Assembly: GCF_038900055.1 (NCBI RefSeq)
Contig: NZ_JBBMQM010000001.1
Span: 2,666,001-2,730,000 of the forward strand
Length of the DNA stretch: 64,000 nt
Direction: 5' to 3'
DNA from: Henriciella sp. AS95
GTDB taxonomy: Bacteria > Pseudomonadota > Alphaproteobacteria > Caulobacterales > Hyphomonadaceae
In this document: positions 16,569 through 25,020 of the stretch, piece by piece
Layout: each line of letters opens with the position of its first letter
Position numbering within the stretch: position 1 is the first letter of the stretch
Program-made: the position numbers and the translations under genes
Notes under the pieces: generated by a model
What the model was told of the DNA's origin: nothing
What the model saw: only the letters and a program-made list of their open reading frames with translations
Database searches by the model: none

Positions 16569-17435
16569 GTGGCCAAACCATTCCGCTGGGACTTTGCGAA
16601 ACGCGAACAGCTTGGCGGCTGGATCGACCGGGCCAGCGACTTTCACCCGCCACACCCGGAAGATCTCGACACGCTGCGCGAGACGGCCGCCCGCATCCTC
16701 GCCATGAGCGACGGGGCCGATCTCGCTTTCATCGGGCGGTCACCGGAGAATTTCTACGATTACCTTTCGGGCATCTTTGACGGCATTGAGGGCGCGCCGG
16801 CGCTCAGTCTCGTGCCCTTCTCGATGCGCGGGCTCGGCGTGGGCGGTGTCGACGCCATCGCGCCTCACAAGTTTGAGGGTTTGCGGGCCGCCCTGGAGGC
16901 GCAGGGCGTGCGGCCATCCGCCATCGCGAAAGGCGGGGCCGCGCTCTGCCTCGTCGATGCCGTCGCCTATGGCGGCACGTTCGAGTCCTTCGTGACCGTG
17001 CTTCACCGCATTGCCCGCGAGGACGGGACAGACTGGAATGCAGTGCAGCGCAAGCTGCGCATCATCGGGCTGAGGGTGCGCACCAAGAACAGCCCCAAGA
17101 CCTGGCGCTGGCAGCAGCATCAGCGCTGGCTAGACCTCGTACCGGACATGTCGATCAAGAATGTCTCCGTACCGGACGGCTACCTGTTCCTGCTGGCGAG
17201 CGGCCCGGACAAGGTAACCCGGTCCTTCCATGAAGGCCGCTGGGACGAGGACCAGTCGGGCGCCGCCCCGCCGAGCGAGGATCAGCTGCGCGGCATGGCG
17301 CTCGCCGCCTGGCTCTATGACCTTGGCCAGACACGCGAGGAACGTCATACCCTGGCGGGCCTGATCGCCGCCCGCCCCGAAATGAAGCAGGCCGCGACCC
17401 GCGCACTCGTCACCGCTCTGCGGCGCGGACACTAG
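16569..17435 (+). CDS. Conserved hypothetical protein
   Basis: A 288-residue soluble protein starting at GTG with GGGGG about 10 bases upstream. Residues about 45-75 (MSDGADLAFIGRSPENFYDY) and GGAALCLVDAVAYGGTFESF (about 120-140) look like a Rossmann-type or phosphoribosyltransferase-like core, the latter being the expected ribose-phosphate loop position. This is suggestive only. The C-terminal quarter is helical. I do not recognise a characterised family. Its stop shares the tetranucleotide CTAG with the convergent alcohol dehydrogenase. Confidence 0.75.
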   Translation: MAKPFRWDFAKREQLGGWIDRASDFHPPHPEDLDTLRETAARILAMSDGADLAFIGRSPENFYDYLSGIFDGIEGAPALSLVPFSMRGLGVGGVDAIAPHKFEGLRAALEAQGVRPSAIAKGGAALCLVDAVAYGGTFESFVTVLHRIAREDGTDWNAVQRKLRIIGLRVRTKNSPKTWRWQQHQRWLDLVPDMSIKNVSVPDGYLFLLASGPDKVTRSFHEGRWDEDQSGAAPPSEDQLRGMALAAWLYDLGQTREERHTLAGLIAARPEMKQAATRALVTALRRGH

Positions 17436-18693: not shown

Positions 18694-20739
18694 TTGGCAG
18701 GGGGCGTAGACGGTATCAGCCAGGACTGGTGGGACCGCTGGTGGGAAGACGACTGGAGCTGGGAGGGGCTGGCGAAGAAGCCGTGGGACGGTTGGGTGGT
18801 GCCCGAGCCGGGTGCAGAGCCGGTGCTGGATGAGGAATATAACGGGTTCAATCATCCCGATTTGAAATCGCGTTTCGGACCTGAAGCGCGGACAGCCACC
18901 CTTCAGGATTATTGGCGCGATCAGGAACAGTGCCTTGAGAAAGGGCCGGGCGGCGTCAGCTTCACTCGCCTGCACCTGCCCTTCGAATGGCAGGATGGCA
19001 CGCCGACAGGCAAAGCCGACTGGCCCTCAAATGCCTTGAATGCTCTGATAGAGAGTCGGCTGAATCAGGTCGCCGACCGCGCTTTCGAAGCGGAGACGTC
19101 ACTTCAAATCCTCTGGCGCGCCCAATTCCAGGGCGGTGTTTTCCTTCGGTTTCGTCCGAGCGAGCTTGACTTATACCCTCGCTCACGATCGGAACGCCCA
19201 CAACTCGCTATCCGTTGTGACACTTGTGCCTTTGCCGGTCCCGCCGGGTTCACCGAGGCCGCCTTTGCCGGTCACGCCTGGTTCAGCGAGGCCGCCTTTG
19301 CCGGTCACGCCTGGTTCAGCGAGGCCACCTTTGCCGGTCCCGCCTGGTTCGACAAGGCCGCCTTTGCCGGTCCCGCCTCGTTCGACAAGGCCGCCTTTGC
19401 CGGTCCCGCCGGGTTCACCGAGGCCGCCTTTGCCGGTCCCGCCTCGTTCGACAAGGCCGCCTTTGCCGGTCCCGCCTGGTTCAACAAGGCCGCCTTTGCC
19501 GGTCCCGCCTCGTTCAACAAGGCCGCCTTTGCCGGTCCCGCCTCGTTCGACAAGGCCGCCTTTGCCGGTCACGCCTGGTTCAGCGAGGCCGCCTTTGCCG
19601 GTCCCGCCTGGTTCACCGAGGCCGCCTTTGCCGGTCACGCCTGGTTCACCGGCAAAGGCACAAGTGTCACAACGGACCCTATCAAAGGGAATTTGCAGCT
19701 TGATCCGGCGGCTGCACCAAAAGCAGAAGAGTCACAGACAGGCCAACTCCATTTTCCGGAGCAGACAAGCTGGCTTGCCAAGCGATCTTTTCCGAATGCG
19801 TCTTTTAAGCAGGCTGTCTTTCTGGACAGAGCGCGGTTCGATAATCGCGACTTTCTCTCAGATACATCTTTCAAGAATGCGATCTTTCTGCGTGAAGCCG
19901 AGGTCCATGACAGCAAGCTGCACCGCGGCATCTCCTTTCGCGATACGCAGATGAAGTCAGGGCTGGAGCGAGGAAAAGCGGTTCCGGAAATTGAGCCACA
20001 ATTCCAGCACAGCTGGGACGCTGCGTTAGAGCGCCTTCATGGCGCCGAAAAACGCGCCGCCGAAATACGAGGTAAACCCGTTTTAGATTTCGAGACGTGG
20101 AAAAAGGACTTCACTCAAAAGCGGCGGACCGCTGAAGATGACTTCAGCACATCACCGCAGCACGAACAGTCCACCTATTTCGGGCGTCTGGAAGACTGTT
20201 ACCGCACGCTGAAACAGCTCATGGAAGACAAGCGCGACCGGGGACAGGAAGCGCACTTCTTCAAGCTTGAACTGAAAGCCAGACGCAATCGGCGCGACCG
20301 GCATGTCCCTTGGTGGGAACGGCAGGCGTCCGATGTCTATGGCGCGATTTCGGATTTCGGCACATCGATCTTCCGGCCTCTGGTCTGGCTGACCGGATCG
20401 GTCTTCGCCTTCGCTATCGCCTATTGGATAATGGGGACATGGTTTGCCTTCTCCCCCTCCTGGCAGGGCTGGGGCGATGCGCTGTCCTTCTCCTTCGGGC
20501 GCGTCCTGCCTTTCGGGCCATGGAGCGAACCGGATGCCTGCGGCCTGATGGGCCGCCTGCTGGACCTTTCACCACAGCCGGGCGCTGCGCCTTGCCCGCT
20601 TCAGGACGGGGCCGACTATACGATGCGGGGCGGCACACCCATCTGGGTGCGCTTGCTCGCATCCGTCCAGTCGCTCACCGCCATCATCCTGGTCTTCCTG
20701 TCCGGCCTTGCGGTGCGCCGGAAATTCCAGATCAACTGA
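18694..20739 (+). CDS. Pentapeptide-repeat protein with C-terminal two-helix membrane domain
   Basis: A 681-residue protein. The start is TTG 18694, supported by AGGAGGG 7 bases upstream. Residues 1-175 are Trp-rich and hydrophilic. Residues about 178-320 are thirteen copies of an 11-residue unit (AAFAGPAWFDK-like) with Phe every 5 or 6 positions, the Pentapeptide_3 pattern expected to form a right-handed beta-helix. Weaker pentapeptides follow (FKQAVFLDRARFDNRDFL). After a charged helix region, two membrane helices lie near 563-584 and 652-673, separated by a WGDALSFSFGRVLPFGPW loop. That layout recalls pentapeptide proteins fused to 2TM ion-channel domains, but no selectivity filter is visible. 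The array is flanked by a perfect inverted repeat. Confidence 0.88.
   Translation: MAGGVDGISQDWWDRWWEDDWSWEGLAKKPWDGWVVPEPGAEPVLDEEYNGFNHPDLKSRFGPEARTATLQDYWRDQEQCLEKGPGGVSFTRLHLPFEWQDGTPTGKADWPSNALNALIESRLNQVADRAFEAETSLQILWRAQFQGGVFLRFRPSELDLYPRSRSERPQLAIRCDTCAFAGPAGFTEAAFAGHAWFSEAAFAGHAWFSEATFAGPAWFDKAAFAGPASFDKAAFAGPAGFTEAAFAGPASFDKAAFAGPAWFNKAAFAGPASFNKAAFAGPASFDKAAFAGHAWFSEAAFAGPAWFTEAAFAGHAWFTGKGTSVTTDPIKGNLQLDPAAAPKAEESQTGQLHFPEQTSWLAKRSFPNASFKQAVFLDRARFDNRDFLSDTSFKNAIFLREAEVHDSKLHRGISFRDTQMKSGLERGKAVPEIEPQFQHSWDAALERLHGAEKRAAEIRGKPVLDFETWKKDFTQKRRTAEDDFSTSPQHEQSTYFGRLEDCYRTLKQLMEDKRDRGQEAHFFKLELKARRNRRDRHVPWWERQASDVYGAISDFGTSIFRPLVWLTGSVFAFAIAYWIMGTWFAFSPSWQGWGDALSFSFGRVLPFGPWSEPDACGLMGRLLDLSPQPGAAPCPLQDGADYTMRGGTPIWVRLLASVQSLTAIILVFLSGLAVRRKFQIN
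19211..19676. repeat. Perfect 29-bp inverted repeat flanking the coding minisatellite
   Basis: The 29 bases at 19211-19239 (beginning TCCGTTGTGACACTTGTG) are the exact reverse complement of 19648-19676 (ending CAAGTGTCACAACGGA). Identity stops abruptly on both sides. The enclosed 408 bases (19240-19647) are a whole number of codons, and both arms meet the segment at codon boundaries. The opposite strand of the segment is also open, so inversion would keep the gene's reading frame. The arms extend about 14 bases beyond the 33-bp repeat unit, so they are not a by-product of the array. Confidence 0.9.
19225..19653 (+). repeat. 33-bp tandem repeat (13 copies) coding the pentapeptide array
   Basis: Thirteen consecutive 33-base units, each encoding an 11-residue AAFAG[PH]A[WSG]F[DSTN][KE] repeat, lie in frame within the pentapeptide gene. 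Variation is confined to a few positions (CCC/CAC for Pro/His, TGG/TCG/GGG, GAC/AAC/AGC/ACC, AAG/GAG), so the copies are very young or kept alike by recombination. Five reading frames are open across the block. Copy number is likely to vary between strains. Confidence 0.93.
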
Positions 20740-21892: not shown

Positions 21893-22453
21893 ATGACCGG
21901 CCTAAGAGCGCGTCTGCGCACCGATACACGCAAACAGCACGAGCATATCGATTCCTTATACAGTCAGTACGATTTATCCACGCGGAGCGGCTTGGCGAGC
22001 CTCCTCCATGCCCACGCCATTGCCCTGTCCTGGTGTTATGACGCCATCCCGAACTCAATGATGATGTACCGGCGAGCCATATGTGAGCTGATCGGCGCGA
22101 TCGCGGCAGACCTTGCCCAGCTTGATCAACCGCCTGTCACACATTGGCCGACCTGTCCGGACACCCCAGCCCCTCATCCGCTCGGCATCGTCTATGTGGT
22201 TGCCGGCTCTCGTCTTGGCGGTCGAATGCTTGTTCGTCAGGTCGAGGCATCACCGGACAAGGCCGTTGCAGCAGCGACAGATTATTTTACCTGCAATACC
22301 GGCGATGAACTCTGGCGCAACGTATTGCTCGAACTGCGTAACTGGCATGGAAATGACCGGGAAAGCGACCGTATTATTACGGGCGCGCGCGAAACCTTTG
22401 AATGGTTTGCCATTGCACAAACTGAAACAGAAAAGGGCCGGGTTGCGGCATGA
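21893..22453 (+). CDS. bphO: Heme oxygenase (biliverdin-forming), phytochrome partner
   Basis: From ATG 21893 (MTGLRARLRTDTRKQHEHID) this is a 186-residue bacterial heme oxygenase. The HEHID segment carries the probable proximal heme His, and a GIVYVVAGSRLGGRMLVRQV block matches the Gly-rich distal helix region of BphO proteins. It cleaves heme to biliverdin, CO and iron. Its stop overlaps the start of bphP by 4 bases (ATGA), which fixes its role as chromophore supplier. An upstream in-frame start at 21839 would add 18 residues without conservation. Confidence 0.88.
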   Translation: MTGLRARLRTDTRKQHEHIDSLYSQYDLSTRSGLASLLHAHAIALSWCYDAIPNSMMMYRRAICELIGAIAADLAQLDQPPVTHWPTCPDTPAPHPLGIVYVVAGSRLGGRMLVRQVEASPDKAVAAATDYFTCNTGDELWRNVLLELRNWHGNDRESDRIITGARETFEWFAIAQTETEKGRVAA

Positions 22454-25020
22454 CGAACACGACAGTTTCGCCAGACACCAAGATCGACCTCTCCAATTGC
22501 GATCGCGAGCCAATTCATATTCTTGGCCATGTCCAGCAGTTCGGCTGCCTGATTGCCGTAAACTCCGATTGGATCATCTCCCATGCGTCGGACAATACGA
22601 GCGCATTCCTGGAGCTGAATGCGAAGGACATTATCGGCGATAGCCTGTCCGACATTTTCGACAGCGCAGCGCTTGGTCAGATACGGGCGCGCTTGCAGCA
22701 ACTCGACAGTCCGGACGCGGTAGAGCGCCTGTTTGGCCTGTCTCTGCTTCCGGGGAATGATCGCCGGTTCAACGCCGGTGTTCACCGCTCTGGCCCATAC
22801 GTCATCATAGAAATAGAGGCTGGCGGAGACGACAAGCGAACCGACTACACCTCCTATGTCCGCCCCATGATCGATCGCGTCCGACGCGCCCGGACAGTCG
22901 AGGAACTCTGCAAGATCGCAGCGCGGCAGATGAAGGCACTGACCGGTTTTGACCGCGTGATGGTCTATCGCTTTGCGGCCGACCAGTCTGGCGAAGTGAT
23001 CGCGGAAGCTGTCAGCCCAAACATCGATTCCTTTCTTGGCCTCCACTATCCAGCCAGCGATATTCCCCAGCAGGCGCGCGACCTTTATCGCCGCAACCTG
23101 CTGCGCATTATCTCCAATGTGAACGAGAAGGTTTCGCCCATCATTCCGGAACGGTCCCCGGATGGCGAACCACTGGACCTGTCCATGAGTGGCCTGCGCG
23201 CGGTTTCTCCGATCCACATTGAATATCTCAAGAATATGGGCGTCGAGGCGTCGCTTTCGGTGTCGATCCTGCGCCGCGAAAAACTGTGGGGGCTGTTTGC
23301 CTGCCACCATTATTCGCCGCGCGTACTGCCTTATGAAATTCGGTCGGCGGCCGAACTGTTTGCCCAGCTGTTCAGCTTCATCCTCGACCAGATTCTCACC
23401 GACTCCGCGAACGCCCAGTCGCAGCGCACGCAAGTGCTTCACGACCAGCTGATGTCGCAACTCGCCGGCGGGCGCTCCGTGAAGGAGCACTTCCCTGCTG
23501 TCGTCGATGCACTGTCATCCGTCATCGAGAACGATGGGGTTGCAGCCTGGGTGGACGGAGAGTTTCTGTCACTTGGCACGACACCGACGCGCGAAGAATT
23601 CATGGGCATCGTCCGGATGCTCCACACGACAGCCGGGGGCCGCGTCTTCGCGACCGATGAACTGGGCGAAGTGCACCCACCCGCCAGGGACTATCTTGAC
23701 CGCGCAGCAGGCCTTCTTGCCGTTCCAGTGTCGCGACGGCCTCGCGACTACATCGTGCTCTTTCGCCAGGAGATCAACAAGAGTGTGAAATGGGCGGGCA
23801 ATCCTGAAAAACCCGTCACGCTTGGCCCGAATGGACCGCGCCTCACGCCGCGCAAGAGCTTTGAGCTCTGGCAGGAAACCGTCCACGGACAAAGCGAACC
23901 ATGGACGAGTGCACAGGTCAGCGCAGCCGAACAGCTTCGCGTCACGCTGCTGGAAGTCGTGCTGCGCATGTCTGATGCAGCCCATCAGGACCGTATTCGC
24001 GCCAATGAGCGCCAGGAATTGCTGATTGCGGAACTCAATCACCGGGTCCGCAACATCCTCAACCTCATTCGCGGTGTCGTTGCTCAGAGCGCCAAGGATG
24101 CAGCTTCAGTCAGCGAACTCTCAACCGTGATCGGCGGTAGAATCCATGCGCTTGGCCGGGCCCACGATCAGCTGACGCAGGACAATTGGGCTCCGTCTTC
24201 ACTGTTTGGACTGATCCGCACTGAAGTCGACGCTTATCTCGGCAAGAAGGCTTCCCGCGTCCGCATTTCGGGCCCAGATGCCATGCTGACACCAACCGCT
24301 TTCAGCACAATGTCGCTCGTGATCCACGAGATGACGACGAACTCTGCCAAATATGGCGCCCTTGCCGATTCGCGTGGAGAGATAGCCATCACCACGCAGG
24401 AAGCTGACGATGGCAGCCTCGCGATTTCCTGGCGCGAGTCAGGCGGTCCCGCCGTTCAGGCACCAACCCGCAAGGGCTTTGGCACGACGATCATCGAAAA
24501 TTCCATTCCCCACGAACTGTCTGGCACAGCCGAAACGCGTTACGCGCTAACCGGGCTGGAAGCGGACTTCACGGTTCCGGCGAAGTTCGTCTCAAGCTTC
24601 AATGCCGCATCGTCGCCCACCCCTGAAGCGGCCAGCAAGCCGCCTGGCAAGCCAGCCGGCGGCATCGAAATGGGCAATGTGCTGATTGTGGAAGACAATA
24701 TGATCATCGCATTGGACGCCGAAGATCTCCTTCGTAACGCCGGTGCCGAAAGCGTGCTGGTGTCCAGTTCAGTCGAGGAAGCTCAACGCGAACTCGATTC
24801 GAATGACATCGCGTTCGCACTTCTCGACGTCAATCTCGGGAGCGAGACCAGCGAACCGATTGCAGCTGCGCTCAGCGAGAATGGAACGCCCTTTGTCTTC
24901 GCGACCGGCTATGGCGACTCCGCCGCCCTCGCCAGCAAATTTCCCGGCGCCCCTATTCTGCAGAAGCCATATGACGAGAACAGCCTGACGGACGCGATCG
25001 CAGCCGCACTAAAAGGCTAG
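22450..25020 (+). CDS. bphP: Bacteriophytochrome HWE-type histidine kinase with receiver domain
   Basis: An 856-residue red/far-red light sensor. The N-terminal biliverdin-binding cysteine is Cys17 in SNCDREPIHILGHVQQFG. The PAS domain is followed by a GAF domain with the chromophore motif YPASDIPQQAR (about residue 200), a PHY region (about 330-510), and an HWE/HisKA_2-type kinase. The kinase has phosphoacceptor His in AELNHRVRN (about 531), N-box HEMTTNSAKYG and WRESGGP. A C-terminal receiver (about 743-856) has Asp in LLDVNLG and Lys in LQKPYD. The kinase could phosphorylate its own receiver. No separate response regulator gene is adjacent. Confidence 0.96.
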   Translation: MTNTTVSPDTKIDLSNCDREPIHILGHVQQFGCLIAVNSDWIISHASDNTSAFLELNAKDIIGDSLSDIFDSAALGQIRARLQQLDSPDAVERLFGLSLLPGNDRRFNAGVHRSGPYVIIEIEAGGDDKRTDYTSYVRPMIDRVRRARTVEELCKIAARQMKALTGFDRVMVYRFAADQSGEVIAEAVSPNIDSFLGLHYPASDIPQQARDLYRRNLLRIISNVNEKVSPIIPERSPDGEPLDLSMSGLRAVSPIHIEYLKNMGVEASLSVSILRREKLWGLFACHHYSPRVLPYEIRSAAELFAQLFSFILDQILTDSANAQSQRTQVLHDQLMSQLAGGRSVKEHFPAVVDALSSVIENDGVAAWVDGEFLSLGTTPTREEFMGIVRMLHTTAGGRVFATDELGEVHPPARDYLDRAAGLLAVPVSRRPRDYIVLFRQEINKSVKWAGNPEKPVTLGPNGPRLTPRKSFELWQETVHGQSEPWTSAQVSAAEQLRVTLLEVVLRMSDAAHQDRIRANERQELLIAELNHRVRNILNLIRGVVAQSAKDAASVSELSTVIGGRIHALGRAHDQLTQDNWAPSSLFGLIRTEVDAYLGKKASRVRISGPDAMLTPTAFSTMSLVIHEMTTNSAKYGALADSRGEIAITTQEADDGSLAISWRESGGPAVQAPTRKGFGTTIIENSIPHELSGTAETRYALTGLEADFTVPAKFVSSFNAASSPTPEAASKPPGKPAGGIEMGNVLIVEDNMIIALDAEDLLRNAGAESVLVSSSVEEAQRELDSNDIAFALLDVNLGSETSEPIAAALSENGTPFVFATGYGDSAALASKFPGAPILQKPYDENSLTDAIAAALKG

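Follow-up and report, generated by a model that had tools for sequence, protein, structure and literature searches.

A gene for a pentapeptide-repeat protein in Henriciella sp. AS95 contains a perfect 29-bp inverted repeat, with one arm at each edge of a tandem array. We think that this inverted repeat is probably the scar of a template switch of the quasipalindrome type, in which one boundary of the array was converted by copying the other boundary in reverse. An earlier annotation, made from the letters of the sequence alone (the first-pass annotation), had offered two readings of the inverted repeat: either a phase-variation switch or a scar left by an inverted template switch. Comparisons to related genomes favor the scar and speak against the switch.

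The inverted repeat and the array

The gene lies in a window of 64,000 nucleotides (the whole stretch of DNA that we analyzed), on a 3.8-Mb contig. We refer to the window's gene as the AS95 gene, and to the genomes that we compared it to by labels such as G002, G012, and G014. The protein matches the profile of Pentapeptide_3 (PF13576 in Pfam) with 119.2 bits (E = 8e-35), which exceeds the curated cut-off of 27, so it belongs to this family. NCBIfam gave no match. The start codon is TTG; at the corresponding residue, the orthologs in G002, G012, and G014 start with ATG.

What the first-pass annotation had described at this site proved accurate. The inverted repeat is perfect, and its coordinates and those of the 408 bases between its arms are exact (Table 1). 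The segment between the arms is made of 33-bp units (12.8 copies with 91% matches), it has no stop codons when read in antisense, and neither inner junction interrupts a codon: position 19239 ends codon 182 and position 19648 starts codon 319. Also, the arms reach beyond the array unit, with 17 of their 29 bp outside it. The other 12 bases (GCCTTTGCCGGT) are array-unit sequence, and from most of the units, GCCTTTGCCGGT can pair with ACCGGCAAAGGC at the right boundary. The right boundary has a family-wide motif, F[ST]G[KEQ]G.S[VL].

Table 1. Features of the pentapeptide-repeat gene (positions within the window)
Feature	Position	Strand	Remarks
Pentapeptide_3 (PF13576) beta-helix gene	18694..20739	+	681 aa, TTG start, long C-terminal helices; from the list of open reading frames and Pfam
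Left boundary patch, 33 bp / 11 codons (AIRCDTCAFAG)	19207..19239	+	proposed inverted copy of the right boundary
Left arm, 29 bp	19211-19239		within the left boundary patch (19207..19239)
33-bp tandem array, ~12.8 units (AFAGPAWFDKA)	19228..19648	+	codes for beta-helix
Spacer, 408 nt	19240..19647		segment that inversion would flip
Right arm (TGKGTSVTTD)	19648..19676	+	caps the array at its C-terminal end; the proposed template for the copy

This is the only perfect inverted repeat of at least 18 bp, with arms within 3 kb of each other, in the window; the next best ones are 85–89% identical. Elsewhere in the window, a large open reading frame (22450-25020) contains a 20-nt inverted repeat (85%; 23703-23722 and 24240-24259) with its arms 517 nt apart.

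The stop-free antisense frame of the spacer is unremarkable. The spacer uses just 15 distinct codons, and none of them is TTA, CTA, or TCA, so the antisense frame is open here because the array was homogenized to this set of codons. The array of the AS95 gene is short and nearly uniform (13 units), while the arrays of the three closest orthologs are longer and highly diverged. This suggests that the array in AS95 recently contracted or re-expanded.

In predicted structures, the forward array forms regular short strands (pLDDT of ~79–93 over residues 201–320), and the model of the whole protein has low confidence (mean pLDDT of 62.3). Foldseek found no match for the protein model in the PDB at E = 0.001 or better.

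Orthologs and gene context

The orthologs in G002, G012, and G014 (G014 is Henriciella barbarensis, from the same genus as AS95) are syntenic, with an alcohol dehydrogenase gene on one side and argF on the other. A more distant ortholog is found in G006. We also searched across the genus, the family, and the order, and found that the same C-terminal family occurs in other genera. In those members, the right cap is different (FSGEGRSLTSER) and so is the left boundary. We rejected an origin from a mobile element or by insertion: the gene and its neighbors are syntenic in the three orthologous loci, and the array runs without a break into the rest of the protein, with no sign of an inserted unit.

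The closest relative of the AS95 gene is G014 for the N-terminal part and G002 for the C-terminal part, which suggests that the gene has mosaic ancestry. In a FastTree tree of the N-terminal part, the grouping of AS95 with G014 was weakly supported (0.511). AS95 encodes a second, distant member of the family (L039; G000:C1:2054475-2056973), whose DNA is 95–98% identical to a gene from another genus of the family (G032). This suggests a recent transfer between genera. The open reading frame at 16569-17435 in the window (288 amino acids) has no match in Pfam or NCBIfam, and a counterpart with 64% identity lies near the G012 locus.

The inverted similarity is shared at one register

Using a register anchored to the codons, we reverse-complemented the right boundary and compared the left boundary to it. 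The two boundaries match at 29 of 33 positions in AS95, 26/33 in G002, 20/33 in G012, and 18/33 in G014. So, the orthologs with the same array do not lack the inverted repeat; rather, a decayed version of it is present at the same site, and the arms are more alike in AS95 (29/29) than in these relatives.

In the fixed register, the outer 21 nucleotides had 54 matches out of 84, summed across the four orthologs (including AS95). Controls had a mean of 21.1 matches, a standard deviation of 3.8, and a maximum of 33 (n = 479). The signal does not depend on the AS95 gene: for the outer bases alone, with the 12 array-unit bases left out, G002, G012, and G014 together had 37/63 matches, and none of 428 controls scored as high (mean 15.5, maximum 26). 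For G014 by itself, the Watson-Crick signal is weak (9/21, and 32 of the 428 controls were as high). The similarity is confined to offsets of −33 to about +2 and falls to the background level on both sides. If G-U pairs are counted, each of the four genes pairs better at this register than at any other in-phase position, out of ~680–790 positions per gene. In the outgroups G006, G104, and G066, this register is not the top in-phase position.

These comparisons indicate that the inverted similarity is real, that it predates this species, and that it is a block of ~33 bp (11 codons) shared at a single register and missing from the outgroups. The paired block, judging from the alignments, was originally ~33 bp, with a left patch that begins at 19207, and not just the 29 bp that are now perfect. 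The date of the copying event is uncertain because only four orthologs carry the block and the signal in G014 is weak. We left out a tree built from the 33-mer arms because it lacked resolution.

The left boundary resembles the reverse-complemented right boundary of relatives

G002 contains the right arm, differing at two of 28 bases. In contrast, the left arm had no match with three or fewer mismatches in any of the other Henriciella genomes that we searched. We then compared each AS95 boundary to those of the outgroups. The left boundary of AS95 matches the outgroups' left boundaries at an average of 5.1 of 21 positions, which is about what is expected by chance, but it matches their reverse-complemented right boundaries at 8.7 of 21 (0 of 389 controls were as high). 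For comparison, the AS95 right boundary matches the outgroups' right boundaries at 9.6 of 21. The same test gave a moderate signal in G002 and G012 (15/389 and 10/389 controls were as high) and was not significant for G014.

The G002 gene points in the same direction. The left boundary of AS95 (19207-19239) matches the reverse-complemented right boundary of G002 at 31 of 33 positions, versus 27 of 33 for the left boundary of G002. These 31 matches include GCTATC, which has been lost from AS95's own right boundary. Because AS95's left boundary is more similar to the outgroups' reverse-complemented right boundaries than to their left boundaries, it is best explained as an inverted copy of ~33 bp, from right to left.

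The first-pass annotation's suggestion of an inverted template switch is supported by these results, namely the shared register, the sharp end of the block at ~33 bp, and the right-to-left signal.

The arms were probably homogenized again in AS95

Between AS95 and G002, the C-terminal part of the gene has a dS of ~0.69. At gene-average rates, the probability that the arms stayed identical since the two lineages split is ~0.001 for all 29 sites, or 0.018 for the outer 17 sites. This low probability suggests a conversion after or near the split, and the arms have probably been re-homogenized in the AS95 genome.

Alternative explanations

Might the segment between the arms flip? In a phase-variation switch, or intragenic inverton, inversion of 19240-19647 would alternate between the beta-helix protein and a full-length Gly-rich protein. 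Invertons within genes form an established class (Chanin et al. 2024, as cited in PMC11868660), and the perfect 29-bp arms, the in-frame junctions, and the stop-free antisense spacer are what such a switch would have. When we compared the orientation of the array across relatives, as the first-pass annotation had proposed, we found the forward orientation only: in the AS95 assembly and in 10 of 10 other family members that we read, including the three syntenic orthologs. The arrays of these relatives all have the AxF reading. The spacers of the orthologs contain antisense stops (4 in G002, 2 in G012, and 6 in G014), so inversion there would truncate the protein. Neither the open alternative frame nor arms that are compatible with inversion are conserved in these three genomes; at 26/33 in G002 and 20/33 in G012, the relatives' arms are imperfect, unlike conserved recombinase sites. 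The window has no match to Resolvase or Phage_integrase. In the rest of the genome, Resolvase is found only on contig C3, and the integrase-family genes are on C3 or are on C1 but over 800 kb away. The antisense product, which was folded without an alignment, was modeled with low confidence (no residues with pLDDT of 70 or above). A literature search turned up no papers on pentapeptide repeats in connection with inversion and phase variation. Given the forward arrays, the antisense stops, the lack of both recombinase families nearby, and the weak model of the antisense product, a phase switch seems very unlikely. Arms of this length could in principle allow rare homologous inversion, which is a point in favor of flipping, and occasional unselected inversion across the arms may occur. 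That rare inversion in living cells, independent of any recombinase, gives rise to another full-length protein, one with a Gly-rich segment, and is kept by repeated re-perfecting of the arms strikes us as very unlikely too.

Instead of flipping, the arms might pair. A long-range stem in the mRNA or in single-stranded DNA might be under selection because it isolates the array or affects translation or array stability. The minimum-energy RNA fold of AS95 does pair the 29-bp arms (z = −4.65), and six G-U pairs in each of G012 and G014 raise their pairing to 26/33 and 24/33, at the top in-phase position. But these counts of G-U pairs are about what the null predicts (6.3 and 6.2), and of the 7 positions out of 33 in G002 that are unpaired or wobble, just one is a G-U pair. 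The compensatory changes are within the range of the shuffles: the covariation score was reached by 113 of 500, and the number of double changes by 139 of 500. The stem is also absent from outgroups with the same gene plan. We therefore rejected a conserved RNA stem and consider selection for pairing quite unlikely. Chance complementarity between two conserved protein caps, perfected later by ordinary substitutions, is also unlikely, if somewhat easier to credit. Both boundaries do encode motifs that are conserved among Henriciella genes, and genomes offer many possible inverted pairs, so that imperfect ones will arise and the lucky ones will be noticed. Yet the block is sharply bounded and is far beyond the register controls even without the AS95 gene, its left boundary is nearer to the right boundaries of the outgroups than to their left boundaries, and 29 identical sites are improbable at this gene's divergence.

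A proposed mechanism

We propose that a template switch took place in the ancestor of up to four Henriciella species. The 12 bases of the first array unit (GCCTTTGCCGGT) are complementary to the right edge of the array (ACCGGCAAAGGC, which encodes TGKG), and it is plausible that this complementarity was the seed. During replication or repair, a strand at the left edge would have paired at the right edge, used the right boundary as a template for about 21 more bases in reverse, and then switched back. One such event, or perhaps several, would have replaced 11 codons without an insertion or deletion, and the reading frame would have been kept because the seed and its match share the same codon phase. 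From then on, the resulting left cap (about AI[R/C]CDxCAFAG) would have diverged species by species. In AS95, later homogenization of the arms, alongside homogenization of the array, would have produced the 29 perfect bases.

The distance between the arms (408 nt in AS95 and 639–702 nt in the orthologs) is long for template switching, and would make a simple fold-back less likely than an exchange with another molecule or between sister strands. The differing nearest relatives of the N- and C-terminal parts weigh against this account, as recombination between species could blur the reconstruction.

Comparison to known systems

Several systems resemble the proposed template switch. In coding genes of S. 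cerevisiae, template switching between the arms of inverted repeats homogenizes the arms and changes multiple residues (PMC8604942). There, as here, one arm serves as the template for the other inside an open reading frame, which leads to multinucleotide and amino-acid changes, and in yeast these events are recurrent. Spacers were shorter in the inverted repeats that had switched than in the remaining coding ones, and the yeast survey covered spacers of up to 70 nt (PMC8604942), compared to 408–702 nt here. Also, the patch of ~33 bp in Henriciella persists in several species and its seed appears to be a unit of a tandem array.

In the mitochondria of Nematomorpha, template switching was proposed to explain both the formation and the concerted evolution of coding palindromes (PMC6649704). 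Those too are perfect inverted repeats within protein-coding genes, with both arms coding. The nematomorph palindromes are numerous and up to 284 bp long, and both of their arms code for conserved regions, whereas the Henriciella case concerns a single bacterial gene, in which older sequence seems to have been replaced by a copy that now forms one arm. For RNA hairpins, both origin and maintenance by template switching have been proposed (PMC8794818): a reverse-complement repeat is made and then re-perfected, as we propose for Henriciella. The differences are that, in our case, the repeat is part of a gene that codes for a protein, its spacer is long, and its covariation does not rise above shuffles.

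Intragenic invertons (Chanin et al. 2024, as cited in PMC11868660) share with this gene the presence of inverted repeats in one open reading frame that could flip an internal segment. They differ from this gene, whose relatives are in the forward orientation only and have antisense stops, with no recombinase of the families we searched for nearby. The scar, if we have read it correctly, is a further case of the coding inverted repeats already known to be converted by template switching.

Implications

The AS95 gene is a warning: where an array has low complexity, finding an inverted repeat together with an antisense frame free of stops is weak evidence of phase switching. What it offers instead is a case with a direction, backed by relatives, in which one boundary of a repeat domain appears to have been rewritten in frame from the opposite boundary, hundreds of bases away. 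If this is correct, then a tandem array in a bacterial gene can act as the seed for template switching over a long distance, and an 11-residue peptide derived from antisense sequence arose and persists across several species.
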